A stretch of 64,000 nucleotides of DNA, taken from Bacteroidales bacterium. GTDB taxonomy: Bacteria; Bacteroidota; Bacteroidia; Bacteroidales; UBA932. The notes under the pieces were generated by a model. That model saw only the letters and a list, made by a program, of their open reading frames with translations. It searched no databases and was not told the origin of the DNA. A program made the translations under genes and the position numbers. The stretch is from the NCBI GenBank assembly GCA_017619675.1, contig JAFZRX010000002.1, positions 62,001 through 126,000 on the forward strand, given 5' to 3'. Below are positions 2,678-28,532 of this stretch, one piece after another (position 1 is the first letter of the stretch; every line of letters starts with the position of its first letter).

Positions 2678-3587
2678 TATTCTCCACCATCCTTCCTACC
2701 AGGCGGTCCAGCGATTCATGGCTGGCCCAGGCTATGTGCGGGGTGAAGCGGAGGCGCTCCGGATGGGAGGAGTGGAGCAGAGGATGGTCCTCAGGGAGGG
2801 GCTCCGTGGAGAAGACATCCAGCGCGGCGCCGGCAATGCGGCCGGTATCGACGGCCGCCGCAAGCGCCGCTTCGTCCACGACGGCGCCGCGGCCCAGGTT
2901 CACCAGATATGCGGAGGGCTTCATGAGTGCGAGCTCGCGCTCGCCAATAAGCCCGCACGTGCGCTCGTTCAACGGACAATGGATGCTCACGATATCGGCA
3001 GCCTTCAGCAGTTTATCCAGCGGCAGAGAAGGCCACTCCTTGCAATGGTTTGTTCCTGATGTGGAATAATACACCGGCTCCATACCAAATGCGGAGGCCA
3101 CCTGCGCTACCCTCTGCCCGATATTCCCCATTCCAATTATACCGATGGTCTTGCCCCACAGTTCATGGAAAGGCTCCCTGACATCGTTCGGAACGCCGCT
3201 TCTGGAATATGTAAAGTCCTTTACTTCAGCGTCATAGAATGTCGGACGGCACATTAGGGAAAGTATATGCATGAAGGTGATCTGCACCACGGATTCAGTG
3301 CAATAGTCCGCCACGTTGCGGACGGCTATCCCCCGCTTGCGAGCCGCCTCCAGGTCTATGTGATTGAGGCCCGTGGCCGATACACAGATCATCTTGAGCG
3401 CCGGCGCCGCCGCCATTATGGCGTCGTCCACCGGGGCCTTGTTGGTGATGATCACATCGGCGTCAGCCACTCTCTGGCAGGCTTCCTGATGGGTGCATCC
3501 CTGGTAGACCGCCAGTTCGCCCAATGCGGCTATTGGATCCAGTGAAACCGGACCCATGGTACCCGCATCCAGAAACACCATTTTCAT
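2652..3587 (-). CDS. D-isomer-specific 2-hydroxyacid dehydrogenase (glycerate/hydroxypyruvate type)
   Basis: 311 aa NAD(P)-dependent oxidoreductase that interconverts a 2-keto acid and a D-2-hydroxy acid. The Rossmann motif GMGNIG lies at 152-157. The catalytic set is Arg233 (LGRGAVVDE), Glu262 (STEPLP) and His284 (TPHIAWAS). Overall similarity is to the glycerate dehydrogenase/hydroxypyruvate reductase branch; the exact substrate cannot be read from sequence. I chose the ATG at 3587 because the protein then begins at the first beta-strand (MKMVFLDAG) and overlaps the upstream icd stop by exactly four bases. A longer open frame upstream lies inside icd and has no family similarity. Confidence 0.88.
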
Positions 3588-5245: not shown

Positions 5246-5332
5246 ATGACTATTAACGTCCACATATTCGGTATTTCCAACCAGCAGAATAATAATATTA
5301 TTCTATCCTGTCTTACCGGCCGGACGGGGTAG
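5246..5332 (+). CDS. Asn/Gln-rich leader peptide (28 aa) of the glnK-amtB operon
   Basis: A 28-codon frame ending in TAG. It begins Met-Thr-Ile-Asn and contains six consecutive Asn/Gln codons at residues 12-17 (N-Q-Q-N-N-N), with 5 Asn and 2 Gln in total. It ends 19 nt before an intrinsic terminator and ~100 nt before glnK. I recognise no protein family; the value of the frame is in its codons. By analogy with his/trp/thr leader peptides, translation of the Asn/Gln run would be slow when charged tRNA-Asn or tRNA-Gln is scarce. A second leader with the same start (Met-Thr) and the same codon bias precedes asnB. The role is inferred; translation is not shown by sequence alone. Confidence 0.68.
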   Translation: MTINVHIFGISNQQNNNIILSCLTGRTG

Positions 5333-5357
5333 TATTTTGCAGATATATAGGGAAGAC
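5310..5357 (+). promoter_or_regulatory. Possible antiterminator pairing in the glnK leader
   Basis: Leader bases 5310-5317 (GTCTTACC, codons for Cys22-Leu23-Thr24) can pair with 5350-5357 (GGGAAGAC), seven of eight positions with one A/G mismatch. The second segment is the 5' arm of the terminator, so the two structures exclude each other. A ribosome held at the Asn/Gln codons would leave 5310-5317 free; one that reaches the stop would cover it. The pairing was found by eye. Confidence 0.4.
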
Positions 5358-5387
5358 CGGTTCGAAAGAGCCGGTCTTCTTTTTTTT
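5352..5387 (+). terminator. Intrinsic terminator/attenuator before glnK
   Basis: GAAGACCGG (5352-5360) pairs perfectly with CCGGTCTTC (5371-5379). The stem extends inward through TTC/GAG to a GAAA tetraloop, and eight T residues follow (5380-5387). It lies between the leader peptide stop and glnK with no other gene to terminate nearby, so it is best explained as an attenuator. Confidence 0.9.
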
Positions 5388-5433: not shown

Positions 5434-5781
5434 ATGAAAAGGATTGAAGCCATCATCCGCAGAACAAGGTTTGAGGATGTGAAGGAGGCCCTGCTCCAGT
5501 CAGACATCAACTGGTTTGAGTATCACAGCGTACACGGTATCGGCCAGAGCCGACAGGAAAGGATTTACCGCGGCGTCCAGTACTCTACCGACGTAATTGA
5601 GCGCATTGCCTTGACAATTATCTGCAGGGACATCTTTGTGGAGCCCACAATCGAGGTACTCCTGCGCGAGGCTCATACCGGCGAAGTCGGAGACGGGCGC
5701 ATCTTTGTCAGCGATGTGATTGACACCTGGTCCATCAGGACAGGAGAACACGGGGACACCGTGCTTAGGGACAGGAAATAA
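5434..5781 (+). CDS. glnK: P-II family nitrogen regulatory protein
   Basis: 115 aa, the usual length. P-II proteins are trimers that bind ATP/ADP and 2-oxoglutarate and plug or open partner proteins, here most likely the adjacent ammonium channel. The T-loop region (about 37-53) includes YRGVQY, with Tyr50 at the place of the uridylylated Tyr51 of E. coli GlnB; the loop is one residue shorter. The C-terminal signature TGEVGDGRIFVSDV (82-95) and RTGEHGD follow the family. Direct linkage to amtB (21-bp gap) favours the name glnK over glnB. Expression is probably set by the upstream leader and terminator. Confidence 0.93.
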   Translation: MKRIEAIIRRTRFEDVKEALLQSDINWFEYHSVHGIGQSRQERIYRGVQYSTDVIERIALTIICRDIFVEPTIEVLLREAHTGEVGDGRIFVSDVIDTWSIRTGEHGDTVLRDRK

Positions 5782-5802: not shown

Positions 5803-7020
5803 ATGAACGATTTAGCTATATCTCTGGACACTGTATGGATGCTGCTTGCAGCAATGTTGGTCTTTTGGATGCAACCCGGATTCGCACTCTGTGAGGCGGG
5901 ATTCACCCAGGGCAAGAACACCGTGAACATCCTGATGAAGAACTTCGTGGACTTCATGCTGGGTTCCCTGCTGTATTTCTTCGTGGGCTTCGGCTTCATG
6001 TTCGGAAGCGACGGCGCCGGATTCATAGGCGCACCCAACTGGGGAGACCTTTCATTCTATAAGGGAGACCTGCCCGTAGAGGGATTCCTAATCTTTGAAA
6101 CGGTGTTCTGCGCTACGTCTGCTACCATTGTCAGCGGCGCCATGGCAGAGAGGACAAAGTTCTCCATGTATATGATTTACAGCGCCTTCATCTCGCTTCT
6201 GATCTACCCCGTGGAAGGTCACTGGACCTGGGGAGGAGGCTGGCTCGCGGACCTTGGCTTCCACGATTTCGCGGGAAGCGCTATCGTACATAGCGTAGGC
6301 GGAGTGCTGGCTTTGATTGGCGCCATAGCCCTTGGACCGCGTCGCGGCAAATATGCAAAGGATGGAACAAGCCGCGCTATTCCGGGCCACAGCCTGGCCC
6401 TGGCGGCGCTGGGAGTGTTCATCCTCTGGCTTGGATGGTTCGGATTCAACCCCGGCAGCCAGCTGGCCGCCAGCGGAGAAGTTAACCGCATCGCCATCTC
6501 CCATGTATTCCTTACTACTAACCTTTCCGCTGCGGCGGGCGGCGCGGCAACCCTGTTCCTCTCCTGGATCAAGTACGGAAAGCCATCGCTCTCAATGATG
6601 CTCAACGGCGTGCTGGCGGGTCTGGTAGGCATTACGGCCGGATGTGACCTCGTCTCCCCCTGGGGTGCAGTGATAATTGGTACTATTTGCGGCATTGTCC
6701 TGGTATTCGCCATTGAGTTCTTCGACCATAAACTTCATATTGACGACCCTGTGGGCGCTTCTTCAGTACATGGCGTTTGCGGTATCCTGGGTACTCTCCT
6801 TACCGGACTCCTGGCAACAGACGGAGGCCTCTTCTACGGCGGCGGATGGCATTTCCTGGGTGTACAGAGCCTTGGCATCCTGGTAATTGACGCATGGGCC
6901 GCGGTATGCGGATTCCTGCTGTTCTTTGGAATCAAGAAATTCTTCGGACTGCGTGTGGAAGCCCGCGTCGAGGACGAAGGCCTTGACATTTACGAACACG
7001 GAGAAAGCTGCTACAACTGA
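5803..7020 (+). CDS. amtB: Ammonium transporter (Amt/Rh family)
   Basis: 405 aa polytopic inner-membrane channel protein with about eleven predicted membrane segments, as in the family. Recognisable are MQPGFALCEAGFTQGKN near the N-terminus, the region containing the first pore histidine (GSAIVHSVGG) and the second (SSVHGVCGILG). It moves ammonium/ammonia into the cytoplasm. It sits between glnK and an outer-membrane barrel gene (2-bp gap to the latter). This order suggests a full uptake route from outer membrane to cytoplasm with P-II control. The cytoplasmic tail is short and acidic. Confidence 0.96.
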   Translation: MNDLAISLDTVWMLLAAMLVFWMQPGFALCEAGFTQGKNTVNILMKNFVDFMLGSLLYFFVGFGFMFGSDGAGFIGAPNWGDLSFYKGDLPVEGFLIFETVFCATSATIVSGAMAERTKFSMYMIYSAFISLLIYPVEGHWTWGGGWLADLGFHDFAGSAIVHSVGGVLALIGAIALGPRRGKYAKDGTSRAIPGHSLALAALGVFILWLGWFGFNPGSQLAASGEVNRIAISHVFLTTNLSAAAGGAATLFLSWIKYGKPSLSMMLNGVLAGLVGITAGCDLVSPWGAVIIGTICGIVLVFAIEFFDHKLHIDDPVGASSVHGVCGILGTLLTGLLATDGGLFYGGGWHFLGVQSLGILVIDAWAAVCGFLLFFGIKKFFGLRVEARVEDEGLDIYEHGESCYN

Positions 7021-7022
7021 TC

Positions 7023-7685
7023 ATGAAAGCGTTGTTTATAACATCCCTGCTCCTTATCGGAGCGTTGACTGCCGGTGCACAAGATAATATAGAAACTTCC
7101 TTAGGGACTGACCTCGTCAGCCAGTATGTCTGGCGTGGTCAGGAACTGGGAGGCGTTTCGGTACAGCCTTCACTGGGCGTCAGCTACAAAGGCTTGAGCC
7201 TGTCAGCTTGGGGGTCGGTTGGATTAGCCAACCCTCTTGACACCAGGGAACTGGACTTTACCCTGGCCTATGGGGCAGGCGGATTTAACATCGGGGTGAC
7301 GGATTATTGGTTCCCTGAAATCTCAAGCAATGTATACGAAGCCAATGTCGGCTATGATTTCGGGTTCGCCTCCCTGCAGTGGTTTACCAACTTTGCAGGG
7401 GACGACAGCCTGACCGGTGACGGCCGGCTGGCCTATAGCAGTTATCTGGAGATCAATGTCCCGTTCTCATTGGGCGGTGTCGACTGGACGGCAACGGCGG
7501 GAGCAGTACCCTTTGCCACGGATTTCTATGGCGTAAGCCGGTTCTCCGTCATAAACCTGGCAATGACCGCTTCAAAGGACATTCAGGTTACCGATAAATT
7601 CTCGATACCAATTTTCGCACAGTTGGCAGCAAATCCATACACTAAAAATGCTTATCTTGTGTTTGGAATTACACTGGGGCTGTAA
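7023..7685 (+). CDS. Putative outer-membrane beta-barrel protein (TorF/Gcw_chp-like)
   Basis: 220 aa with a signal peptide ending near AGAQ (residues 1-20) and alternating hydrophobic strands through to a final LVFGITLGL, consistent with a small outer-membrane barrel. The phrase SQYVWRGQELGGVSVQPSLGV matches the start of the TorF/Gcw_chp family of putative porins. No enzymatic motif is visible. It lies 2 bp after amtB and 7 bp before purF, so it is probably co-transcribed with the nitrogen genes. I infer a role in passage of a small nitrogen compound, but the substrate is unknown. Confidence 0.65.
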   Translation: MKALFITSLLLIGALTAGAQDNIETSLGTDLVSQYVWRGQELGGVSVQPSLGVSYKGLSLSAWGSVGLANPLDTRELDFTLAYGAGGFNIGVTDYWFPEISSNVYEANVGYDFGFASLQWFTNFAGDDSLTGDGRLAYSSYLEINVPFSLGGVDWTATAGAVPFATDFYGVSRFSVINLAMTASKDIQVTDKFSIPIFAQLAANPYTKNAYLVFGITLGL

Positions 7686-7692
7686 TTAGACT

Positions 7693-9084
7693 ATGAAAGG
7701 GCAACGGATAAGTCTTGACGAGCTGCACGAGGAATGCGGCGTCCTGGGAATCTACGGCGTTGAGGACGCCTCCCATCGCGCATTCCTGGGCCTGGAGGCA
7801 CTGCAGCACCGCGGCCAGCAGGCTTGCGGGCTGGCAGTCTGCGGGCCTGACCGCAGACTCCGCATCCGTAAGGGCGCCGGCCTGGTCAGGGACGTCTTCC
7901 CTGAAGAGTCCCTCTCCACCCTACCCGGCGACACCTGCATAGGCCACGTCCGCTACCCCACCACCGCCGTGGGCGGAAGAGAGAACATCCAACCTTTCAG
8001 CATCACCAGCAAGGCAGGCACCTTCGCCTATGCCCATAACGGAAACATAGTCAATGCCGATGAAATAAAAGCAAGCCTGGAAGAGCACGGCCACCTGTTC
8101 CAGTCCACCTCCGACAGCGAACTCTTCGCCCACCTGATAGGCATGGGCGCCAACGCCGACGGCTGGGTCCGCAGCATCATCGCTGCCGCCAACCAACTGG
8201 ACGGCGCCTTTTCAACCGTAGTCCTCGCAGGCGGCATCCTTTACGCCTGCAGGGACAAGTACGGATTCCGGCCCCTGTCCGTGGGGCGCCTGGAAGGCGG
8301 CTACGCAGTAGCCAGCGAAACCTGCGCCCTGAACGCCATGGGGGCGGAATTCCTGCGCGACATAGAGCCAGGCGAACTGGTAGTCATCGGTCCTGACGGA
8401 ATCCAAAGCTACCGCCATTCACAGCACCCGGGCAGATATATGTGCGCCATGGAATTCATTTATTTCGCGCGCCCCGACAGCGACATAGAGGGCTGCAACG
8501 TCCACGCTTTCCGCAAGCGGACGGGCCGGCTCCTCTTTGAGGAGCACCCCGTCCCCGCGGACATCGTGGTAGGCGTCCCGGACTCCAGCCTCAGCGCTGC
8601 CATGGGCTACTCCGAAGCCTCTGGCATCCCACTGGAGCGGGGCCTGCTGAAGAACATCTACGTGGCCCGCACCTTCATCCAGCCCGCCCAGTCCTTGCGG
8701 GACCTGGGCGTCCGGATGAAAATGTCCCCCATCCGCAGCGTGGTGGAAAGCAAATCCTTGATCCTGATTGACGATTCCATAGTCCGGGGAACCACCTCCA
8801 GGCAGATTGTCCGCCTGCTGCGCGACGCCGGCGCCAGGGAGGTCCACATGCTCATCGCCAGTCCCAAATACGCCTGGCCCTGCTTCTACGGCATAGACAC
8901 CGGAACCAGCGACCAGCTCATCGGCGCCAGCCACACCGAACAGGAGATCTGCGAATTCATTGGCGCCGACTCCCTCCACTACCTATCGGAACAGGCGCTG
9001 CTCCAGGCGTCCTGCCGGACAACCCTTTGCACCGCCTGCTTCTCAGGTCACTACCCCACAGCGCTCTACGGCGCTGACGAATAG
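7693..9084 (+). CDS. purF: Amidophosphoribosyltransferase (glutamine PRPP amidotransferase)
   Basis: 463 aa. It catalyses the first committed step of purine synthesis, transferring the glutamine amide to PRPP. The N-terminal nucleophile is Cys15 in EECGVLGIYG, so a 14-residue propeptide is expected to be removed. The class II glutaminase domain is followed by the PRPP loop LILIDDSIVRGTTSRQ. Cys in MCAMEF and PCFYGID and the C-terminal CTAC pair match the iron-sulfur ligands of the B. subtilis-type enzyme. It is the last gene of the glnK-amtB group, which ties a glutamine-consuming pathway to ammonium uptake. It ends directly against the convergent next gene, with no visible terminator between. 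Confidence 0.95.
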   Translation: MKGQRISLDELHEECGVLGIYGVEDASHRAFLGLEALQHRGQQACGLAVCGPDRRLRIRKGAGLVRDVFPEESLSTLPGDTCIGHVRYPTTAVGGRENIQPFSITSKAGTFAYAHNGNIVNADEIKASLEEHGHLFQSTSDSELFAHLIGMGANADGWVRSIIAAANQLDGAFSTVVLAGGILYACRDKYGFRPLSVGRLEGGYAVASETCALNAMGAEFLRDIEPGELVVIGPDGIQSYRHSQHPGRYMCAMEFIYFARPDSDIEGCNVHAFRKRTGRLLFEEHPVPADIVVGVPDSSLSAAMGYSEASGIPLERGLLKNIYVARTFIQPAQSLRDLGVRMKMSPIRSVVESKSLILIDDSIVRGTTSRQIVRLLRDAGAREVHMLIASPKYAWPCFYGIDTGTSDQLIGASHTEQEICEFIGADSLHYLSEQALLQASCRTTLCTACFSGHYPTALYGADE

Positions 9085-18591: not shown

Positions 18592-18621
18592 TTTGCATTA
18601 TTAAAATTATTTGTAAATTAG
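18592..18621 (+). promoter_or_regulatory. Promoter of the asnB leader
   Basis: TTTG at 18592-18595, 18-nt spacer, TAAATTAG at 18614-18621. The -7 box begins 28 nt before the leader ATG. From the -7 box to the ATG the sequence closely parallels 5219-5248 upstream of glnK, so the two control regions appear related. Confidence 0.6.
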
Positions 18622-18641
18622 CAAAGCAAAACAAGTCAACG

Positions 18642-18737
18642 ATGACTGGATTTTATTGGAACAATCAGCGCAACAATGGCAAGAACCAGAATCAGAATCA
18701 GGTTCTCGAGTTGTTGTGTCCCATCCACCAGTCGTAA
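18642..18737 (+). CDS. Asn/Gln-rich leader peptide (31 aa) of the asnB operon
   Basis: A 31-codon frame ending in TAA. Residues 7-20 contain 11 Asn or Gln among 14 positions (N7 N8 Q9, N11 N12, then N15-Q-N-Q-N-Q20). In total there are seven Asn and five Gln. It begins Met-Thr-Gly and is not related to a known protein family. It ends 39 nt before an intrinsic terminator that directly precedes asparagine synthase. A codon run for the amino acid made by the next gene is the classical sign of a leader peptide attenuator. Translation is inferred. Confidence 0.75.
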   Translation: MTGFYWNNQRNNGKNQNQNQVLELLCPIHQS

Positions 18738-18787
18738 GGACACAGGCAAATGAAAGTTAGTTAGTAACAAAGATATAAAGGGCTGGT
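18727..18787 (+). promoter_or_regulatory. Possible antiterminator pairing in the asnB leader
   Basis: Leader bases 18727-18733 (ACCAGTC, around the codons for His29-Gln30-Ser31) can pair with 18781-18787 (GGCTGGT) over seven positions with one wobble. The latter lies in the 5' arm of the terminator. A ribosome stalled at residues 7-20 would leave the first segment free, while one reaching the stop codon would cover it. Found by eye; alternatives were not computed. Confidence 0.45.
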
Positions 18788-18817
18788 TCCAACAGGAATC
18801 AGCCCTTTTAGCTTTTT
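18777..18817 (+). terminator. Intrinsic terminator/attenuator before asnB
   Basis: AAAGGGCTGGTTCC (18777-18790) pairs with GGAATCAGCCCTTT (18795-18808) over 14 positions with one wobble and an AACA loop. The tail TTAGCTTTTT follows. The asnB ATG is only 15 nt past the stem, so the hairpin could also affect translation start. Confidence 0.88.
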
Positions 18818-18823
18818 AAGGTT

Positions 18824-20488
18824 ATGTGTGGTTTCATAGGCATTTTTGACAGCAAGTGCTCCCAGCGGGAGACTCGCGAAAAGGCATTGCAGATGTCTAC
18901 CCGCATCAGGCACCGCGGCCCGGACTGGAGCGGAGTCTATTGCAGCGAGCACTGCACCCTGGCCCACGAAAGGCTGGCCATCGTGGACCCTTTCTCCGGA
19001 GGGCAACCTCTGTTCTCACCTGACAAGACCTGTGTCCTGGCCGTGAACGGCGAGATCTACAACCACCAGGGCATACGCGACCGCCTTGCCGGGGAATATG
19101 ACTTCCAGACGGGATCGGACTGCGAGGTCATACTGGCCCTCTACCGTGAGAAGGGCGCCGGTTTCCTTGAGGACCTTAGCGGAATCTTCGCCTTCGCCCT
19201 TTATGACGAGCGGGAGAACAGGTATCTGATAGCCCGCGACCCCATCGGGGTGATTCCCCTCTACATTGGATACGATGACGACGGAACCACATACGTAGCC
19301 AGCGAACTGAAGGCGCTGGAGGGAATGTGCGAGCGGTACGAGCCGTTCCCTCCGGGACATTTCCTGGACAGCAAGGACGGCGAGATCCGCCGCTGGTGGA
19401 AGCGCGACTGGTTTGACTACGAGGCCGTCAAGGACAGCGCCGTGAGCCCCAAGGCCATAAGGCCTGCTCTTGAAGCTGCCGTGAAACGCCAGCTTATGAG
19501 CGACGTGCCTTACGGCGTGCTGCTCTCCGGCGGCCTGGACAGTTCCGTGATATCGGCGATAGCCGCAATGTATTCAAGGAACAGGGTCGAGACGCAGGAC
19601 AGGAGCGAGGCGTGGTGGCCGCGCCTTCATTCCTTTGCCGTGGGCCTGAAAGGCTCCCCGGACCTGGAGAAGGCGCGCGTGGTGGCTGACTTCATAGGCA
19701 CGGTGCATCACGAAGTGAACTACACCGTGCAGGAAGGCCTGGACGCCATACGCGATGTCATATATCACATTGAAACCTACGATGTTACAACTGTCCGCGC
19801 CAGCACGCCCATGTACCTTCTTGCAAGGTATATCAAGAGCATGGGCATCAAGATGGTCCTCAGCGGCGAAGGCGCCGACGAGATCTTTGGCGGATACCTC
19901 TATTTCCACAAGGCGCCGGACGCGCAGGCATTCCACGAGGAGACCGTGCGCAAGGTTGGCAAACTCCACCTGTACGACTGCCTCCGCGCCAACAAGTCCC
20001 TGGCCGCCTGGGGCGTGGAAGGCCGCGTGCCCTTCCTGGACAAGGAGTTCCTGGACGTTGCCATGGCTCTGAAGCCGGATGTAAAAATGTGCCCGGGCAA
20101 GGAAATAGAGAAGAAGGTAGTCCGCGAAGCGTTCACGGACCTTCTCCCATACAGCATTGTCTGGAGGCAGAAAGAGCAGTTCAGCGACGGCGTGGGCTAC
20201 AGCTGGATTGACAGCCTCAAGCAGATGACCTCCGAACTGGTGAGCGACAAGCAGATGGCGCACGCCGCGGAGCGCTTCCCCATCCACACTCCCATGAACA
20301 AGGAGGAGTACTACTACCGTTCCATTTTCAGCGAACTGTTCCCCAGCAACAGCGCGGCGCTGAGCGTGCCAAGCGTACCCAGCGTGGCTTGCTCATCGGC
20401 CGAGGCGCTGCGCTGGGACCCGTCCTTCAAGGGCGTCAACGACCCCAGCGGAAGGGCGGTTAAAGATATCCACAATCAAGCATTATAA
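18824..20488 (+). CDS. asnB: Asparagine synthase (glutamine-hydrolysing)
   Basis: 554 aa, the length of E. coli AsnB. Cys2 (MCGFIGIF) is the glutaminase nucleophile, and SGGLDSS at 235-241 is the ATP pyrophosphatase loop. The enzyme converts aspartate, ATP and glutamine to asparagine and glutamate. It is first in a nine-gene collinear series and lies directly behind an Asn/Gln leader peptide and terminator, so its transcription is probably set by Asn or Gln supply. glnN begins 24 bp downstream. Confidence 0.96.
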   Translation: MCGFIGIFDSKCSQRETREKALQMSTRIRHRGPDWSGVYCSEHCTLAHERLAIVDPFSGGQPLFSPDKTCVLAVNGEIYNHQGIRDRLAGEYDFQTGSDCEVILALYREKGAGFLEDLSGIFAFALYDERENRYLIARDPIGVIPLYIGYDDDGTTYVASELKALEGMCERYEPFPPGHFLDSKDGEIRRWWKRDWFDYEAVKDSAVSPKAIRPALEAAVKRQLMSDVPYGVLLSGGLDSSVISAIAAMYSRNRVETQDRSEAWWPRLHSFAVGLKGSPDLEKARVVADFIGTVHHEVNYTVQEGLDAIRDVIYHIETYDVTTVRASTPMYLLARYIKSMGIKMVLSGEGADEIFGGYLYFHKAPDAQAFHEETVRKVGKLHLYDCLRANKSLAAWGVEGRVPFLDKEFLDVAMALKPDVKMCPGKEIEKKVVREAFTDLLPYSIVWRQKEQFSDGVGYSWIDSLKQMTSELVSDKQMAHAAERFPIHTPMNKEEYYYRSIFSELFPSNSAALSVPSVPSVACSSAEALRWDPSFKGVNDPSGRAVKDIHNQAL

Positions 20489-20512: not shown

Positions 20513-22699
20513 ATGAACAATCCAAGATTTGATGTAGTTCAAGACGCCTTCAAGAAGAGGGCCGCTACAGTAGAGATTCCCGCGATGAAGACCTCCGACT
20601 ATTTTGGAGAGCTTGTGTTCAACCGTGAGAAGATGCGCAAGTACCTTGACGCCAAGACGTACATGGACCTTGTGAATTGCATCGACAACGGAGAATCCCT
20701 GGACCGTTCCACTGCCGACAAGGTTGCCGCAGGTATAAAGACCTGGGCCATGGAGCACGGCGTGACGCATATCACCCACTGGTTCCAGCCTTTGACGGAA
20801 GGTACCGCTGAAAAGCACGACTCCTTCCTTGACTACGACGGCAAGGGCGGAATGATAGAGACCTTTGACGGAACCTCACTGGTACAGCAGGAGCCTGACG
20901 CATCGTCATTCCCCAGCGGAGGTATCCGGGCCACTTTCGAGGCCCGCGGCTACACCGCCTGGGACCCTACCTCACCGGTATTCATACAGGACGACACGCT
21001 CTGTATCCCCACCGTGTTCATTTCTTACACCGGAGAGGCGCTGGACTACAAGACCCCTCTGAAGAAGGCCCTGAAGGCCGTCAGCGACGCCGCGGTGCCC
21101 ATCTGCCAGATGTTCGACCCCAAAGTGAAGAAAGTCTACTCTTATCTTGGATGGGAGCAGGAATACTTCCTGGTGGACGAGGACCTTTACGCCGCCAGGC
21201 CTGACCTGATGCTCACCGGCCGCACCCTGATGGGACACGCTTCCTCAAAGAACCAGCAGCTGGAAGACCACTATTTTGGAGCCATCCCTTCAAGGGTCGC
21301 CGCATTCATGCGCGACATTGAGATCGCAGGCTACAAACTTGGAATCCCCCTGAAGACCCGTCACAACGAGGTTGCGCCTAACCAGTTCGAGTTGGCGCCA
21401 ATTTACGGCGAGACCAACCTCTCAAACGACCAGAACCAGATAATAATGAACGTGATGAACAGCATAGCCCGCAAGCACGGCTTCGTTGTCCTATTCCACG
21501 AGAAGCCTTTCGAGGGCATCAACGGTTCGGGAAAGCACAACAACTGGTCCCTTGGAACCGACACCGGCACCCTGCTCCTCGCCCCTGGTAAGGATGCAAA
21601 GGGCAACCTGCAGTTCGTCACATTCTTCGTCAACGTGCTGGCGGCCGTGCAGAAGCACAACGCCCTGATGAAGGCCAGCATCGCATCGGCCACCAACGCG
21701 CACAGGCTTGGAGCGAACGAGGCGCCGCCTGCAATTGTTTCCGCATTCCTCGGAAAGACCATGACCGACGTGCTGCACAAGCTGCTCACCGTGCCTTCCG
21801 ACACTCCTATCGAGATTGCCGGAAAGAAGGGTCAGTCAGTGGGCCTGGTTGAAATCCCTGAGATCTTCGTGGACAACACGGACAGGAACAGGACCTCCCC
21901 GTTCGCATTTACCGGAAACCGCTTCGAGTTCAGGGCCGTGGGCTCCAGCGCAAACTGCGCAGGCGCCATGACCGCCCTCAACTCAGCCGTTGCGGAGCAG
22001 CTCATCGCCTTCAAGGCCGCGGTTGACAAGGAGATGGCCGCAGGAAAGGAGATGAACATTGCCTTCATGGACTGCCTCAAGCCAATCATCAAGTCCATAA
22101 TTGACGTGGTATGCTTTGACGGAAACGGTTACACTGACGAATGGAAAGTTGAAGCCGCAAAGCGCGGACTGGACACCGAGACCAACGTCGCAAAGATGTT
22201 CAAGGCATATACCTCACCTGACGCAATCAAGCTGTTCACAAGCCTGGGAATCTATTCACAGAAGGAACTGGAGGCCCGCAACGAAGTCAAGTGGGAGACC
22301 TACAGCAAGAAAGTCCAGATTGAGGCAAGGGTTATGGGCCGTATGGCAATCAACCACGTTATTCCCGCCGCCCTGGACTACCAGACAAGGCTGCTGCAGA
22401 ACATAGACCTCTGCAAGGAAACCTTCCCTGACGAATACCAGACGCTGGCACTGACCCAGATAGACCTGGTAAAGGAGATTTCATTCCTTGTCAAGGAGAT
22501 CCGCTCCAGCGTGGATGCCATGGTTCAGGCAAGGGCAAAGGCCAACGAGATACAGTGCGAATATGAGAAGGCCCTGGCATACCATGAGATCGCCGAATCC
22601 CTGTTCGCCATCCGCAAGTTCATAGACCAGCTGGAAGAACTGTGCGACAACAGCACATGGCCGCTGCCTAAGTACCGCGAAATCCTGTTCATCAACTAA
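20513..22699 (+). CDS. glnN: Glutamine synthetase type III
   Basis: 728 aa, about the length of GSIII and far longer than GSI. Recognisable GSIII stretches are DTLCIPTVFISYTGEALDYK, KTRHNEVAPNQFELAPIYGE, GSGKHNNWSLGTDTGTLLL and NRTSPFAFTGNRFEFRAVGS. It makes glutamine from glutamate, ammonium and ATP as a dodecamer. GSIII lacks the adenylylation site of enteric GSI, so transcription is a likely main control point. It follows asnB by 24 bp and precedes gltB by 11 bp, which places GS and GOGAT in one unit. Confidence 0.97.
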   Translation: MNNPRFDVVQDAFKKRAATVEIPAMKTSDYFGELVFNREKMRKYLDAKTYMDLVNCIDNGESLDRSTADKVAAGIKTWAMEHGVTHITHWFQPLTEGTAEKHDSFLDYDGKGGMIETFDGTSLVQQEPDASSFPSGGIRATFEARGYTAWDPTSPVFIQDDTLCIPTVFISYTGEALDYKTPLKKALKAVSDAAVPICQMFDPKVKKVYSYLGWEQEYFLVDEDLYAARPDLMLTGRTLMGHASSKNQQLEDHYFGAIPSRVAAFMRDIEIAGYKLGIPLKTRHNEVAPNQFELAPIYGETNLSNDQNQIIMNVMNSIARKHGFVVLFHEKPFEGINGSGKHNNWSLGTDTGTLLLAPGKDAKGNLQFVTFFVNVLAAVQKHNALMKASIASATNAHRLGANEAPPAIVSAFLGKTMTDVLHKLLTVPSDTPIEIAGKKGQSVGLVEIPEIFVDNTDRNRTSPFAFTGNRFEFRAVGSSANCAGAMTALNSAVAEQLIAFKAAVDKEMAAGKEMNIAFMDCLKPIIKSIIDVVCFDGNGYTDEWKVEAAKRGLDTETNVAKMFKAYTSPDAIKLFTSLGIYSQKELEARNEVKWETYSKKVQIEARVMGRMAINHVIPAALDYQTRLLQNIDLCKETFPDEYQTLALTQIDLVKEISFLVKEIRSSVDAMVQARAKANEIQCEYEKALAYHEIAESLFAIRKFIDQLEELCDNSTWPLPKYREILFIN

Positions 22700-22710
22700 A
22701 GGAACCGCTT

Positions 22711-25700
22711 ATGCGACAAGATAACCAAGGATTGTACGCCAGGGAGTACGAGCACGATGCCTGCGGAATAGGCATGCTCATAAACCTGAAAGGCGACAAA
22801 TCCCATTCATTAGTGGACAACGCCCTCACGGTGCTTGAGAACATGAAGCACCGCGGGGCGGAGGCCGCTGACAACAAGAGCGGCGACGGAGCGGGAATCC
22901 TGCTCCAGATCCCGCACGAGTTCATCCTGCTCCAGGGTATCCCGGTTCCGGAAAAGCTTAAGTACGGAACCGGTCTGGTGTTCCTTCCCAAAGACAAGGA
23001 ACTTGCCGCAGGATACGTAGACATCATCCGTCAGGAAACGGAGAAGGCCGGGCTCACCCTGTTCCATATAAGGGAAGTCCCGGTCGATTCTAATGTCCTG
23101 GGAGCCGCCTCCAAGAAGACGGAGCCCAAGATAATCCAGATATTCATAACCGGAGCGCAGGAAGTCAGCAAGTTCGAGACGCAGCTGTACCTGCTGCGCA
23201 AGCACATAGAAAGGAGGATAAACGACAGGGATTTCTACATAGTGTCCCTGTCAAACCGTGTTATAGTATATAAGGGAATGGTCACCTCCAACCAGTTGAG
23301 GGAATATTACCCGGACCTGGGAAGCCCGTTCTTCACCAGCGCCCTGGCAATGGTTCATTCCCGTTTCAGCACCAACACCTTCCCTACCTGGTCGCTGGCA
23401 CAGCCGTTCAGGATGCTGGCCCACAACGGAGAGATAAACACCATCCGGTCCAACCGCTCATGGATGGAAGCGCGCGAGAGCGTGCTGAGCTCACAGCCGT
23501 TGGGAGAGGTTAAGGACTTCTCCCCCGTCATCCAGCCGGACATGAGCGACAGCGCTTCCTTTGACAACGCGCTGGAGTTCTTCGTGCGCTCAGGCATGAG
23601 CCTGCCGCACGCAATGGCCATGATGGTGCCGGAATCCTTCAACGAGAAGAACCCTATCAGCCAGAGCCTCAAGGACTTCTATGAGTATCACTCCATCCTG
23701 ATGGAGCCTTGGGACGGCCCTGCTGCCATGCTGTTCACTGACGGCAGGTATGCCGGAGGAATGCTGGACCGCAACGGCCTGAGGCCTTCAAGGTACCTTG
23801 TTACGGAGGACGGCCTCATGCTTATAGCGTCCGAGACCGGATGCCTCAAGATTGACCCGCAGAACGTACGCGCCAAGGGCAGCCTCCAGCCGGGAAAGAT
23901 AATGCTGGTTGACACCGAGACCGGGCAGATAATTGCGGACGAGGAGATAAAGAAGACCCTCTCAGAGGGCCAGGACTACGGAAAATGGCTTTCCGAGGGC
24001 CGTACGGAACTGGCGAAGCTCCGCAGCGGGCGAAAGGCTGACTACGAAGTGGAAGACTATGAGCGCAAGCTGCGCGGCTTTGACTTCACTCGCGAGGATA
24101 TCCAGAAGGTTATACTTCCCATGTGCTCCAACGCGCAGGAGCCAATTTCCTCAATGGGTAACGACACCCAGTTGGCGGTGCTTTCAGACAGGCCGCAACT
24201 GCTGTTCAACTATTTCAGGCAGCAGTTCGCCCAGGTTACTAACCCGCCTATAGACCCTATCAGGGAGGAACTGGTGATGTCCTTGACGGAGTACATAGGA
24301 GCCGTGGGAATGAACATCCTCACCCCGGACAGTTCCCACTGCAAGATGGTGCGCCTCCCCCAGCCTATCATCACGAACACGGAACTGGATACGCTGTGCA
24401 ACATACGCTACAAGGGATTCAACACTGAGAAACTCCCCATGCTCTTCGATCCCGCAAAGGGAGAGAAGGGGCTCAGGGAGGCCCTGGACGCGCTTTGCAA
24501 GGAAGCGGAGCGTTCCGTTGACAACGGCATCAACTACATAATCCTCACGGACCGCGGTATTGACGCGGATCATGCGGCAATACCTTCCCTGCTGGCCGTG
24601 AGCGCCATCCACCACTACCTTGTCTCCATCAAGAAGAGGGTGCAGACGGCGCTTATAGTGGAGAGCGGAGAGATACGCGAGGTAATGCACGCCGCCCTCC
24701 TGCTGGGCTACGGCGCCAGCGGAGTCAATCCGTACATGGCCTTTGCGGTAATCAAGGACCAGGTGGAGAAGGGCGCCCTGCAGATGGACGAAGTCACCGC
24801 CAGACACAACTACATAAAGGCCATGGACAAGGGCCTGCTGAAGATCCTCAGCAAGATGGGCATCAGCACCATCCGCTCCTACCGCGGAGCCAAGATCTTC
24901 GAGGCCATAGGCCTCAGCAGCGAGCTGCTTTCCAAGTACTTCGGCACCGCTTCCTCTACGGTGGAAGGCATCGGCCTGGATACTATCGCAAAGGATGCCA
25001 TCCGCCTGCACGCGCAGGCCTTCCAGGCGGAACAGGGCGACGTCCTTCCAATGATAGGACAGTACTCCTTCCGCAAGGACGGTATCCGCCACGCGTGGAC
25101 GCCTGAAGCGATAGCTACGCTTCAGATAGCCACGCGCGAAGGCGACTACGCCAAATTCAAGGACTTCACCTCCATCATAGACTCCCGAAAGGAACCCCTG
25201 TTCCTGCGTGATTTCTTCACCTTCAAGCAGAACCCCATCCCTCTGGAGGAGGTAGAGCCAGAAGAGAACATAGTGAAGAGGTTCGTGGGAGGGGCGATGT
25301 CGTTCGGCGCCCTCAGCGAGGAGGCGCATGAGACCATCGCCCTGGCGCTGAACAAGCTGGGAAGCAGGAGCAACACCGGCGAGGGAGGCGAGGACGAGGC
25401 CCGATTCAAGGGAACCAAGGACGGAGTCTCACTCAACAGCAAGGTAAAGCAGGTGGCTTCCGGACGCTTCGGCGTCACCACTGAATATCTGGTCAACGCA
25501 GAGGAGATACAGATCAAGGTGGCCCAGGGCGCAAAGCCCGGAGAGGGCGGACAGCTGCCGGGATACAAAGTGAACGGCATCATAGCCAAGACAAGGCATT
25601 CAATCCCGGGGATATCCCTTATTTCCCCGCCGCCGCACCATGACATCTACTCCATAGAGGACCTGGCCCAGTTGATATTCGACCTCAAGAATGTCAACCC

Positions 25701-27183
25701 CAAGGCCAAGATCAGCGTTAAACTGGTTGCGGAGAGCGGCGTGGGAACCATAGCCGCCGGAGTAGCCAAGGCCAAGGCTGACCTGATAATTGTATCAGGA
25801 GCCGAAGGCGGCACCGGCGCCTCCCCCATTTCCTCCATAAGATACGCTGGAATATCTCCGGAGATTGGCCTTGCGGAAACGCAGCAGACACTCATAATGA
25901 ACAACCTGCGCGGTTCCGTGGAACTGCAGACCGACGGCCAGTTGAAGACAGGAAAGGACATCATCTCGATGGCATTGCTGGGAGCGGGAGAATTCGGCTT
26001 TGGAACCGCACAGCTTATTGTGCTGGGATGTGTTCTGATGCGCAAGTGCCACTCCAACAACTGCCCCATGGGTGTAGCCACGCAGGATCCGGAACTCCGG
26101 AAACGCTTCATGGGCAAGGCGGATTACCTTGTAAATTACTATACCTTCCTGGCGCGCGAGGTGCGCGAGTATCTGGCGCAGATGGGCTTCCGCAAGTTCG
26201 AAGACATCATTGGCAGGAGCGACCTCATTGAGATAGACACAGGCAAATTGAATGAGAAGACTGCCGGACTGGACTTTGGCAAACTGCTTTACAGGGTGGA
26301 CGGCACGGCCGCCATCCGCAAGCAGAGGGACCAGAAGCACAACATCTTCAACGTCCTGGACCGCGAGCTCATAGCCGCCACCAAGTATGCGGTGGACAGC
26401 AAGCAGCCTATATCACTGACCTACGACATTGTGAACACCAACCGTACTGTGGGAGCCATGCTTTCAGGCCACATTACGGAGCAGTACGGCTCCGAGGGCC
26501 TGCCTGACGGCACCCTGAACATCACGTTCAAGGGCTCCGCAGGCCAGAGTTTCGGCGCCTTCCTGGCAAAGGGAGTGGAGTTCAGGCTGGAGGGAGAGGC
26601 CAACGACTATATGGGCAAGGGCCTTTCGGGCGGAATCATTTCCGTATATCCGCCTGCGCGTTCGCCGTTCAAGGCTTCTGAGAACGCCATCGCGGGCAAC
26701 ACCATACTTTATGGCGCCACCAGCGGCAAGGTGTTCATATGCGGAAAGGCGGGTGAAAGGTTCGCCGTGCGCAACTCCGGTGCCATTGCGGTAGTTGAAG
26801 GTACATCCGACCACTGCTGCGAGTACATGACCGGAGGCCGCGTGGTTGTCCTGGGTGAGACCGGAAGGAACTTTGCCGCGGGTATGTCCGGCGGCCTGGC
26901 CTATGTCTGGGACAAGAACCGGAACTTTGACTACTACTGCAACATGGACATGATAGAACTGAGCCTGATCGAGGAGAAGGCCCGCAGGGACGAACTGAAG
27001 TCCCTGATCGAGGAGCATTACAGGCGCACCGGGTCAAAACTGGCCGCGGAGATGCTCGCGGACTGGAGCCGCTATCAGGAAGAGTTTATCCAGATTACTC
27101 CTATAGAATACAAGAAGGTACTCCAGGAAGAGGCCATGCGTAAGATTCAGGAAAAGATTGACAACGTTCAGAGAGATTATTGA
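22711..27183 (+). CDS. gltB: Glutamate synthase large subunit
   Basis: 1490 aa. Cys18 (HDACGIGML) is the class II glutaminase nucleophile, implying a 17-residue propeptide. The central region, the FMN-binding synthase domain (GGTGASPISSIRYAG) and the cysteine cluster CVLMRKCHSNNCPMG for the 3Fe-4S centre follow in family order, then the C-terminal beta-helix domain. With GltD it makes two glutamates from glutamine and 2-oxoglutarate. It is followed two bases later by gltD. Confidence 0.97.
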   Translation: MRQDNQGLYAREYEHDACGIGMLINLKGDKSHSLVDNALTVLENMKHRGAEAADNKSGDGAGILLQIPHEFILLQGIPVPEKLKYGTGLVFLPKDKELAAGYVDIIRQETEKAGLTLFHIREVPVDSNVLGAASKKTEPKIIQIFITGAQEVSKFETQLYLLRKHIERRINDRDFYIVSLSNRVIVYKGMVTSNQLREYYPDLGSPFFTSALAMVHSRFSTNTFPTWSLAQPFRMLAHNGEINTIRSNRSWMEARESVLSSQPLGEVKDFSPVIQPDMSDSASFDNALEFFVRSGMSLPHAMAMMVPESFNEKNPISQSLKDFYEYHSILMEPWDGPAAMLFTDGRYAGGMLDRNGLRPSRYLVTEDGLMLIASETGCLKIDPQNVRAKGSLQPGKIMLVDTETGQIIADEEIKKTLSEGQDYGKWLSEGRTELAKLRSGRKADYEVEDYERKLRGFDFTREDIQKVILPMCSNAQEPISSMGNDTQLAVLSDRPQLLFNYFRQQFAQVTNPPIDPIREELVMSLTEYIGAVGMNILTPDSSHCKMVRLPQPIITNTELDTLCNIRYKGFNTEKLPMLFDPAKGEKGLREALDALCKEAERSVDNGINYIILTDRGIDADHAAIPSLLAVSAIHHYLVSIKKRVQTALIVESGEIREVMHAALLLGYGASGVNPYMAFAVIKDQVEKGALQMDEVTARHNYIKAMDKGLLKILSKMGISTIRSYRGAKIFEAIGLSSELLSKYFGTASSTVEGIGLDTIAKDAIRLHAQAFQAEQGDVLPMIGQYSFRKDGIRHAWTPEAIATLQIATREGDYAKFKDFTSIIDSRKEPLFLRDFFTFKQNPIPLEEVEPEENIVKRFVGGAMSFGALSEEAHETIALALNKLGSRSNTGEGGEDEARFKGTKDGVSLNSKVKQVASGRFGVTTEYLVNAEEIQIKVAQGAKPGEGGQLPGYKVNGIIAKTRHSIPGISLISPPPHHDIYSIEDLAQLIFDLKNVNPKAKISVKLVAESGVGTIAAGVAKAKADLIIVSGAEGGTGASPISSIRYAGISPEIGLAETQQTLIMNNLRGSVELQTDGQLKTGKDIISMALLGAGEFGFGTAQLIVLGCVLMRKCHSNNCPMGVATQDPELRKRFMGKADYLVNYYTFLAREVREYLAQMGFRKFEDIIGRSDLIEIDTGKLNEKTAGLDFGKLLYRVDGTAAIRKQRDQKHNIFNVLDRELIAATKYAVDSKQPISLTYDIVNTNRTVGAMLSGHITEQYGSEGLPDGTLNITFKGSAGQSFGAFLAKGVEFRLEGEANDYMGKGLSGGIISVYPPARSPFKASENAIAGNTILYGATSGKVFICGKAGERFAVRNSGAIAVVEGTSDHCCEYMTGGRVVVLGETGRNFAAGMSGGLAYVWDKNRNFDYYCNMDMIELSLIEEKARRDELKSLIEEHYRRTGSKLAAEMLADWSRYQEEFIQITPIEYKKVLQEEAMRKIQEKIDNVQRDY

Positions 27184-27185
27184 CA

Positions 27186-28532
27186 ATGGGAAATCCTAAG
27201 GCATTTTTGACTGTACCCCGCCAGGAAGCGGGACACAGACCTGTATATGAGAGGATCTGCGACTTCAGTGAAGTGGAGCAGTTCCTCAATGAGGGAGAAC
27301 GCCGTCTCCAGGCTTCCCGATGCATGGATTGCGGAGTGCCATTCTGCCACTGGGCCTGCCCTCTGGGCAACAAGGCCCCCGAATGGCAGGACGCCATCTA
27401 TCACGGGGAGTGGGAACTGGCATTCAAACTGCTGTCTGCCACCAACGATTTCCCGGAGTTCACCGGCAAGGTATGCCCTGCCCTCTGTGAGAAAAGTTGC
27501 GTGCTGAACCATTGCATAGACGCCCCCGTGACCATACGTGAGGACGAATGCTCCGTAATAGAGAAAGCCTTTGCGGAAGGATACATCAAGCCCAAGCAGT
27601 ATGCCCGGAACGGGAAGAAGGTGGCGGTGATTGGCGCCGGGCCCGCGGGCCTGTCCGCGGCCACGCGCTTGAACTGCCTGGGTTACGAGGTCACCGTATT
27701 TGACAAAATGCAGAAACCAGGCGGCCTTGTACGCTACGGAATACCAAATTTCAAGCTTGACAAGTACATTATTAACCGCAGGGTGGACTTTATGACGCAA
27801 GAAGGTATTAACTTCGTATGCGGAACCACCGTTGACGTACAGAAACTCCCTGAGGGGTTCGACGCTTATGTGATTGCCACCGGCACTCCGCAGGCCAGGA
27901 ACCTGGATATCCCTGGAAGGGATCTCAAGGGCATCTATTTCGCCCTGGACATGCTCTCCCAGCAGAACAGGATCCTGGAAGGAGAACAGTTCGGCAAGGA
28001 TGAACTGGTGAACGCCAAGGGACGCAAGGTGCTGGTGATTGGCGGAGGAGATACTGGAAGCGACTGCATCGGCACCTGCCACAGGCATGAAGCCGTGAGC
28101 GTGACCCAGATCGAGATCCTGCCAAAGCCGCCGGAGGGGTACAACCCGGCCACGCCGTGGCCGTACTGGCCCCAGATACTCAAGACCACTACCAGCCACG
28201 AGGAAGGCTGCGAGAGGTTCTGGAGCCTGACCTCCAACCGTTTCATTGACGACGGCAAGGGCAACGTGTGCGGCGTTGAGACCGAGCGCGTGGAGTGGGT
28301 ACCCTCCCCTGAAGGAGGACGCCCCCGCATGGAGAAGACCGGCGAGAAGAAGGTCATCGAGTGCGACATGGTGCTTCTGGCAATGGGATTCCTCAAACCG
28401 GAGCATCCGGCCTTGGGCCCCAACGTATTCCTTTGCGGCGATGCCAAGTCAGGCGCCAGCCTGGTTGTAAGGGCAATCGCAAGCGGAAGGGAGACTGCCA
28501 AGGAAGTTGACAAGTATCTAAATACCAAGTAA
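27186..28532 (+). CDS. gltD: Glutamate synthase small subunit
   Basis: 448 aa. The N-terminal cysteines (CMDCGVPFCHWACP and CPALCEKSC) bind 4Fe-4S clusters. GAGPAGLSAA binds FAD, and a second dinucleotide motif GGGDTGSDC binds NADPH. It passes electrons to GltB. I use the ATG at 27186, three bases after the gltB stop; a TTG two codons earlier would overlap that stop and has nothing to recommend it. dapF begins one base after the stop. Confidence 0.96.
   Translation: MGNPKAFLTVPRQEAGHRPVYERICDFSEVEQFLNEGERRLQASRCMDCGVPFCHWACPLGNKAPEWQDAIYHGEWELAFKLLSATNDFPEFTGKVCPALCEKSCVLNHCIDAPVTIREDECSVIEKAFAEGYIKPKQYARNGKKVAVIGAGPAGLSAATRLNCLGYEVTVFDKMQKPGGLVRYGIPNFKLDKYIINRRVDFMTQEGINFVCGTTVDVQKLPEGFDAYVIATGTPQARNLDIPGRDLKGIYFALDMLSQQNRILEGEQFGKDELVNAKGRKVLVIGGGDTGSDCIGTCHRHEAVSVTQIEILPKPPEGYNPATPWPYWPQILKTTTSHEEGCERFWSLTSNRFIDDGKGNVCGVETERVEWVPSPEGGRPRMEKTGEKKVIECDMVLLAMGFLKPEHPALGPNVFLCGDAKSGASLVVRAIASGRETAKEVDKYLNTK

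Follow-up and report, generated by a model that had tools for sequence, protein, structure and literature searches.

A putative asparagine/glutamine-codon leader-peptide attenuator preceding nitrogen-assimilation operons in some uncultured gut Bacteroidales

Results and Discussion

The asnB and glnK loci

The region upstream of the asparagine synthetase gene asnB was analysed in a 64,000-nt stretch of a Bacteroidales bacterium (UBA932; assembly GCA_017619675.1, contig JAFZRX010000002.1, positions 62,001-126,000 of the forward strand), which is called the window here. A short leader frame rich in asparagine (Asn) and glutamine (Gln) codons, followed by an intrinsic terminator, precedes asnB-glnN-gltB-gltD, in which Asn and Gln synthesis stand together. 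The features are summarized in Table 1. An earlier note, made from the letters alone, had described a 31-codon frame with 11 Asn or Gln among residues 7-20, a 14-bp terminator stem ending 15 nt before the asnB ATG, and a seven-position pairing between a strand near the leader stop codon (called the C-box below) and the terminator arm. Each of these was found in place, the pairing of ACCAGTC with GGCTGGT being contiguous and including one G-U pair. A second leader of the same layout, absent from the earlier note and with 7 Asn/Gln in 14 residues, precedes glnK and amtB, which serve ammonium uptake and its P-II regulation, with the porin-like (Gcw_chp) gene and a glutamine amidotransferase gene behind them. 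Each gene set probably forms one transcript, as judged by strand and spacing.

The two leaders are best read as ribosome-mediated transcription attenuators that probably sense charged Asn- and Gln-tRNA and act on several nitrogen-assimilation operons; the probability assigned to this reading is about 0.78. The attenuator of the earlier note was supported in this way, and its restriction to asnB was given up, as the element stands before several nitrogen-assimilation operons including glnK-amtB of the same window. The sequence-based part of the reading comprises the frame, the codon run, the terminator, the aggregate covariation of the C-box pairing and of hairpin S1 (described below), the placement at the stop codon and the gene context. 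The leaders have a frame with codons for the pathway product and an intrinsic terminator between this frame and the first gene, as is expected of ribosome-mediated attenuators. The alternative pairing that uses the terminator arm is supported in aggregate over the leaders, neither window leader being significant alone.

Table 1. Coordinates of the leader features and the downstream genes in the window.
Feature	Position	Strand	Remarks
Second Asn/Gln leader peptide MTINVHIFGISNQQNNNIILSCLTGRTG	5246..5332	+	precedes glnK
Hairpin S1, glnK leader	5303..5332	+	5303-5313 pairs with 5322-5332; C-box ACCGG (5315-5319) in the loop
Terminator, glnK leader	5352..5379	+	C-box partner CCGGT (5357-5361), 5 bp only
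glnK, P-II protein	5434..5781	+	PF00543
amtB, ammonium transporter	5803..7020	+	PF00909
Gcw_chp protein (working name 'porin-like')	7023..7685	+	PF09694
Glutamine amidotransferase	7693..9084	+	PF13537, PF13522; presumably purF-like, by name
Candidate -7 promoter element TAAATTAG	18614..18621	+	one mismatch to TAnnTTTG; 28 nt 5' of the leader ATG
asnB leader peptide frame MTGFYWNNQRNNGKNQNQNQVLELLCPIHQS	18642..18737	+	31 codons; coordinates include the stop codon
Asn/Gln control codons, asnB leader	18660..18701	+	residues 7-20, 11 of 14 Asn/Gln
Hairpin S1, 5' strand TTGTGTCC, asnB leader	18714..18721	+	pairs with 18738-18745, 8 bp
C-box ACCAGTC (proposed antiterminator strand)	18727..18733	+	in the S1 loop; adjoins the stop codon
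Hairpin S1, 3' strand GGACACAG, asnB leader	18738..18745	+	pairs with 18714-18721
Intrinsic terminator, asnB leader	18777..18808	+	14-bp stem, loop of 4; C-box partner GGCTGGT (18781-18787) in the 5' arm
asnB, glutamine-hydrolysing asparagine synthetase	18824..20488	+	PF00733, PF13537
glnN, type III glutamine synthetase	20513..22699	+	PF12437
gltB, glutamate synthase large subunit	22711..27183	+	Pfam
gltD, glutamate synthase small subunit	27186..28532	+	first ATG; TTG start listed at 27180; Pfam on 27189-28529

Chance as the origin of the codon run, which the earlier note had held unlikely, was ruled out by counting frames in the window and in its dinucleotide shuffles. Among the 955 frames of 10-60 amino acids in the 64 kb, the asnB leader reached 11 Asn/Gln in 14 residues, one other frame reached 7 and no third had 7 or more. 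None of the 95,641 frames from 60 shuffles contained 9. The asnB leader (194 nt) folds at -63.5 kcal/mol against -38.5 kcal/mol (standard deviation, sd, 3.7) for its shuffles, giving a z-score of -6.7. The terminator stem was paired in 98.8% of cells over 23 leaders, with two-sided changes at seven pairs, and a T-rich stretch lies 3' of the stem.

A perfect TAnnTTTG, which we take to be the consensus of the -7 promoter element, was found within 100 nt upstream in 20 of 28 leaders and in 4.6% of shuffled upstream regions. Both window leaders carry it with one mismatch, a level reached by 61% of shuffled upstream regions (figure for asnB) and weak by itself.

Pairing of the C-box with the terminator arm

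The pairing was analysed in 57 leaders (28, 26 and 3), of which 44 were non-redundant after 13 near-copies had been removed by hand; leaving out near-copies is the sole treatment of relatedness in the pairing tests. The terminator was placed by hand in six leaders missed by the automatic rule, and the 26 and the three later leaders were entered by hand. The later set comprised 19 of the 26 leaders (seven dropped) and retained the G738 pair, G749_glnK and G626, all similar to one another or to discovery leaders; leaving these four out gave the 15 most distinct later leaders.

The best duplex between a leader end and its own terminator had a mean of -12.9 kcal/mol in the 28 leaders against -11.6 kcal/mol for permuted terminators (9 of 20000 permutations as strong). 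The same test gave -13.7 against -11.6 kcal/mol in the 19 later leaders (0 of 20000), and in the 15 most distinct ones a smaller effect persisted (-13.5 against -12.0 kcal/mol; 9 of 20000). These results revealed that the pairing proposed in the earlier note covaries with the terminator arm across leaders, in aggregate. Matched changes of C-box and partner include ACCAGTC with GGCTGGT, GCCGGTC with GACCGGT, AGACCAGTC with GACTGGTCT, ACGGCCT with AGGCCGT, and GCCCG with CGGGC.

The C-box start lies between -29 and +11 nt of the end of the stop codon in all 54 leaders scored, the position expected for an attenuator. Counted from the first base of the last codon of the run, its median distance is 23 nt (range -16 to 41), which is about the ribosome edge plus one S1 strand.

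Hairpin S1 and a possible pseudoknot form

A simple nested antiterminator in the asnB leader was not favoured by folding, and this prompted a look at the local structure around the C-box. The C-box strand sits in the loop of the 8-bp hairpin S1, which had been overlooked in the earlier note. The same arrangement occurs elsewhere, as in L095 (GTCTATG[actACCAGTCg]CATAGAC), G164 (GTGTTTTAT[ttCCAGTC]GTGAGACAC) and G755 (GCGTATA[actCCAGCCg]TATGCGT). Since the C-box is often enclosed by S1, a pseudoknot is a possible form of the antiterminator. Pairing of a hairpin loop with a strand further downstream yields a pseudoknot of the H type, for which the short joins of the strict S1 set are suitable.

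S1 was scored with the own flanks of each leader and with flanks swapped between leaders. The score for 20 groups was 185.8 against 109.3 (sd 10.8) for swapped flanks (0 of 2000). For the 19 later leaders, which lay outside the set on which the hypothesis was formed, it was 155.6 against 87.3 (sd 13.6; 0 of 5000), and for the 15 most distinct ones 91.4 against 57.9 (sd 10.5; 16 of 5000, or 3 of 5000 with looser loops). With looser loops S1 was found in 28 of 44 leaders, the swap null being 9.9. S1 is thus real in aggregate, though not evident in every leader.

Leaders in relatives

A search of named genomes with asnB gave at least 80 loci. Among the matches listed, Asn/Gln frames stand 5' of asnB in L001, L038, L050 and L061, 5' of glnK in L048, L050, L059 and L073, before a second amtB and before glnN in L003, and again before glnN in L038; many other loci of the same list have gltB-gltD-asnB with no leader 5' of asnB. 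The gltB starts of L018, L027, L031, L032 and L040 showed no leader or terminator in the 105-138 nt upstream that were examined. In L073 the glnK gene is preceded by a tandem pair of complete Asn/Gln leaders, each with its terminator (3081-3197 and 3287-3427).

Two covariance models were built, R1 from 13 and R2 from 23 leaders, with the terminator as the sole paired structure in both. R1 at E<=0.01 matched in 70 of 149 genomes, mostly as noise; 29 loci (L091-L119) were opened, of which L091-L095 are leaders and the other 24 (L096-L119) showed no convincing leader, L117 and L118 having a frame with 6 Asn/Gln in 12 residues. In one of these loci, L100 of G122, the minus strand carries from 1501 onward a frame rich in Leu, MNTRIKFMLSLLLLGLLNRREGILYKKA, and a terminator before a gene that we take by name to be leuA-like; the frame is likely a leucine leader.

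The family was scanned with R2 in 398 genomes at E<=1e-6, independently of gene annotation, and all 36 matches, from 24 genomes, were opened. An Asn/Gln-rich leader was found at 35 of them, preceding glnK, the porin-like gene, asnB, glnN, gltB or a PF14403 gene (circularly permuted ATP-grasp). Of these leaders, eight had served to build the model or duplicate one that had (the two window leaders, before asnB and glnK, and those of G079, G014, G144, G066, G001 and G781), and without these the leader stands at 27 of 28 matches. One contig of G753 has four leaders, before gltB, asnB, glnN and the porin-like gene; its glnN leader is not among the leaders tested statistically.

Two observations from the same scan lie beside this subject. 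The sole match of that scan with another codon content (L209, 1416-1508, plus strand; G124) has a Trp-rich frame MNAQVNNFFFWRAWFWQSSVSVCASPSVQY and a terminator before a gene that is presumably trpB-like, going by its name. This suggests tryptophan attenuation in the same family; visual inspection of that leader showed no clear partner for a C-box. The circularly permuted ATP-grasp gene with an Asn/Gln leader was seen in G741 and G743 (L220 from 1258, PF14403 confirmed; L226, minus strand), and from these leaders the gene family may be linked to nitrogen supply.

From the same genus 41 genomes were drawn, 12 of them with asnB or glnK. A leader stands before at least one operon in nine of the 12 (G000, G149, G156, G158, G160, G161, G164, G173 and G184); in G151 and G163 the operon start is outside the sequence seen. 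In long clusters that hold glnK or asnB at an inner position (glnK in G156, G164 and G173), the leader is at the cluster start, before glnN.

The order-wide scan (393 genomes, E<=1e-4) gave matches in 77 genomes, and part of the weak matches were opened. Six matches below 1e-7 are leaders of the genome of the window, G414 and G554, and two weak matches of G414 and G554 are also real leaders; those of G414 and G554 are Asn-rich, with arginine and lysine. The 27 loci L143-L169 (E of 2.8e-7 or weaker) and one weak G554 match have no Asn/Gln frame, and neither do the three further matches of a class-wide scan of 395 genomes. Conservation across all Bacteroidales was ruled out by these scans and by that of Bacteroides- and Prevotella-type genomes given below. 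The element was found in a subset of Bacteroidales lineages only.

In close relatives the leader frame is kept. Free replacement of its Asn/Gln codons, which the earlier note had named, with loss of the frame, as an outcome that would speak against it, was not seen in the nearest relatives found, whose asnB is 93% and 90% identical and which keep the run. Compared with the leader of G759, the asnB leader has one amino-acid change, one synonymous change and a different stop codon; compared with that of G149 (asnB 90% identical), it has seven amino-acid changes and no synonymous one. Four changes of G149 fall in the run, of which R10N, G13N and K14Q create Asn or Gln and N8K removes Asn. The S1 strands differ in both relatives, G-U pairs keeping the hairpin paired. 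A raw codon tally of the 57 leaders, redundant ones counted, gave 258 CAG and 8 CAA for Gln, and 289 AAT and 109 AAC for Asn.

Ribosome-dependent folding and points against the reading

A number of results weigh against the attenuator reading or against its pseudoknot form. By best duplex, the own terminator ranks 10th (asnB) and 18th (glnK) of 28, and shuffled leader ends match the duplex strength in 40% and 38% of cases, respectively. The 7-bp pairing is therefore not beyond chance in the asnB leader alone, and the support for it is comparative. The best duplex of the 28-leader test sometimes lies outside the C-box, and as the search for the C-box was confined to the interval between -32 and +25 nt relative to the end of the stop codon, its location there is partly imposed. 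Strict S1 (at least 4 bp, tight loops) was found in 20 of 44 leaders, the swap null being 3.7; per-leader shuffles of the S1 flanks gave p<0.05 in 6 of 28. The column covariation of S1 and C-box in one close clade of eight was 0.197 against 0.195 shuffled, the clade having been picked for a common register and two of its ten rows (L001 and G164) dropped where the aligner had split their S1 strand. Regarding distribution, no leader was found in G178, the one of the 12 same-genus genomes with none, and none was seen before the separate asnB of G161, which has a leader before glnK. In 12 named Bacteroides- and Prevotella-type genomes the best E was 1.9e-5 and none of the 14 matched loci had an Asn/Gln frame.

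Folding with a stalled ribosome also weighs here. The nested pairing probability of the C-box, with the terminator incomplete, was 0.00-0.10 for the asnB leader stalled on codons 7-20 and at most 0.21 for the glnK leader on run codons 12-17; in the asnB leader it is nearly absent because the local hairpin S1 forms with the C-box in its loop. A completed terminator prevailed in all four leaders folded, wherever the ribosome stood, so that any antitermination here must be decided during RNA synthesis. In G755 the nested pairing outcompetes S1. From the nested folding results, the model requires a pseudoknot, kinetics or both. The untranslated asnB leader was predicted to pair its C-box with the start region and to form the terminator, as in classical attenuators.

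The explanation that survives best beside the pseudoknot is a classical nested attenuator, in which the C-box would pair with the terminator 5' arm only when S1 is opened or has never formed, S1 being a hairpin for pausing or for timing translation. This is a real though lesser possibility. The restriction of strict S1 to fewer than half of the leaders favours it, as do the nested pairing of 0.96-0.98 in L050_glnK with stalls on run codons 14-27 and the predicted nested fold in L048, L050_asnB and G755 with the ribosome on the last run codon. A protector-like pairing of the start region ATGACTGG with CCAGTCGT, possible in the asnB leader and identical in two relatives, is also in its favour. 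Against it, the nested pairing is near zero in L073a (codons 12-25), as it is in the asnB leader (codons 7-20), and S1 is the predicted fold in the asnB, G164 and G819_glnN leaders. Moreover, a pause hairpin would have no need of the repeated placement of the C-box in its loop with short joins. The fuller reading, in which a leader-peptide attenuator with a ribosome-gated pseudoknot as antiterminator precedes most nitrogen-assimilation operons (up to four copies per contig), with Asn/Gln-tRNA charging as the nitrogen signal, is held at even odds.

Signal and mode of action

A single amino acid may be sensed instead, with Asn as the signal and the Gln codons as mere neighbours of similar codon, or the reverse; this is rather unlikely. 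Some leaders have Asn without Gln (L003_amtB, 15 Asn and no Gln), and G755_glnN has no Asn and 7 Gln. Both extremes occur inside one gene set and most leaders are mixed. A preference for Asn codons before asnB and Gln codons before glnN was considered and dropped, as the median Asn share of 0.59 before asnB and 0.54 before glnN did not differ significantly (p=0.13). The nested and single-signal explanations share the core of the attenuator, and the likelihoods given for them are not mutually exclusive with that of the preferred reading.

Alternatively, re-initiation or protection by ribosomes could make the leader a regulator of translation or of mRNA stability, with a hairpin that is no terminator; leader frames have been proposed to boost downstream translation through re-initiation in several phyla (PMC4833913). 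The T-rich stretch after the stem, the covariation of the stem and a stem-to-gene distance that varies from 15 nt (asnB) and 54 nt (glnK) in the window to 207 nt (asnB in L050) make this improbable. A glutamine-binding riboswitch or T-box with an incidental short frame is least probable of all, even though in other phyla genes of this kind are under the control of glutamine riboswitches and of T-boxes for Asn or Gln. No Rfam family reached its gathering score in the two window leaders and the leaders of six related loci (the best sub-threshold match at the asnB leader being L20_leader, 26 of 58.7 bits), and what is conserved is the codon run together with base complementarity.

Proposed mechanism

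The direction of regulation was deduced with an assumed ribosome footprint of about 12 nt ahead of the A site. With this footprint and the spacing of C-box and run, S1 and the C-box would mostly stay accessible during a stall in the run, and the C-box would be covered once the ribosome stands at the stop codon. Transcription would accordingly end at the terminator under ample Asn and Gln and read through under their shortage. In plenty, the ribosome translating the leader frame, as we infer it does, would pass the run to the stop codon, cover the C-box and open S1; the terminator 5' arm would then be free, the terminator would form and transcription would stop. Under a shortage of charged Asn- or Gln-tRNA, the ribosome would stall in the run, 5' of S1, and the C-box would pair with the nascent 5' arm of the terminator, most likely from the S1 loop as a pseudoknot. 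RNA polymerase would then enter asnB-glnN-gltBD, or glnK-amtB at the second leader.

Relation to known systems

The leaders resemble the trp, his, leu, thr, ilv and phe attenuators of Proteobacteria, Actinobacteria and some Firmicutes in the control codons for the pathway product, the terminator before the first gene, the alternative pairing that would block the terminator and the stop codon adjoining the proposed antiterminator strand. They differ from these amino-acid-operon attenuators in having Asn and Gln codons, in preceding several nitrogen-assimilation operons including ammonium transport and P-II, and in their occurrence in Bacteroidales. The antiterminator strand, unlike that of classical attenuators, is often in a hairpin loop and would make a pseudoknot.

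The nearest leader with a pseudoknot that was found is the LEU element of actinobacterial leuA (PMC1262725). It too combines control codons in a leader peptide with a predicted pseudoknot, and its design differs. As defined in that paper, its base stem joins the Leu codon run with the Shine-Dalgarno sequence, a stem which the present leaders do not have; their run is Asn/Gln and the partner of their C-box is the terminator arm.

For another member of the phylum, Flavobacterium psychrophilum, 'strong clues' to attenuation by leader peptides upstream of operons for amino-acid biosynthesis were described (PMC9723704); the available account names no Asn/Gln leader, nitrogen-assimilation genes or pseudoknot, unlike the present case. 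In Prevotella ruminicola 23, the clusters glnK-amtB-PRU_1977-asnB and glnN-gltBD, much the same gene set as the operons with leaders here, have seven transcripts that differ 26.6- to 69.1-fold between ammonium conditions (PMC5552732, in the text available), the direction of the ammonium response being stated differently in two places of it. The main text of that paper contains none of the terms leader, attenuat, operon and riboswitch. No such leader was found in the named Bacteroides- and Prevotella-type genomes searched, among which P. ruminicola 23 was not included.

The leader-peptide systems collected by Naville and Gautheret (PMC2965389) come from Proteobacteria and Actinobacteria, with Firmicutes added, and the stems bacteroid and asparagin are absent from the text available. 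Short frames resembling leader peptides are mentioned in the accessible part of the B. thetaiotaomicron map (PMC7366714). Other upstream-frame motifs are given in PMC8632094, where the stem bacteroid is absent from the main text, and Asn/Gln is not named in the available part of PMC1183508. In a literature search that had most subscription journals outside it, no Asn/Gln leader or leader-peptide pseudoknot antiterminator was recognised, and the sources as far as available held no account of how Bacteroidales switch nitrogen assimilation on and off.

Conclusion

Some uncultured gut Bacteroidales appear, from their sequences, to control nitrogen-assimilation genes by a leader with Asn/Gln codons. 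The mechanism would be of a known kind, leader-peptide attenuation, and would be unusual in its signal, in the range of its targets and possibly in its antiterminator. The pseudoknot and the direction and signal of regulation are what we infer for it. If the pseudoknot is true, it would be an added form of ribosome-gated antiterminator, of which the literature search recognised none. Asparagine and glutamine would be added to the signals of leader-peptide attenuation, which would here act on several operons together, and a concrete, testable RNA mechanism would be available for the control of nitrogen assimilation in Bacteroidales lineages other than Prevotella ruminicola.
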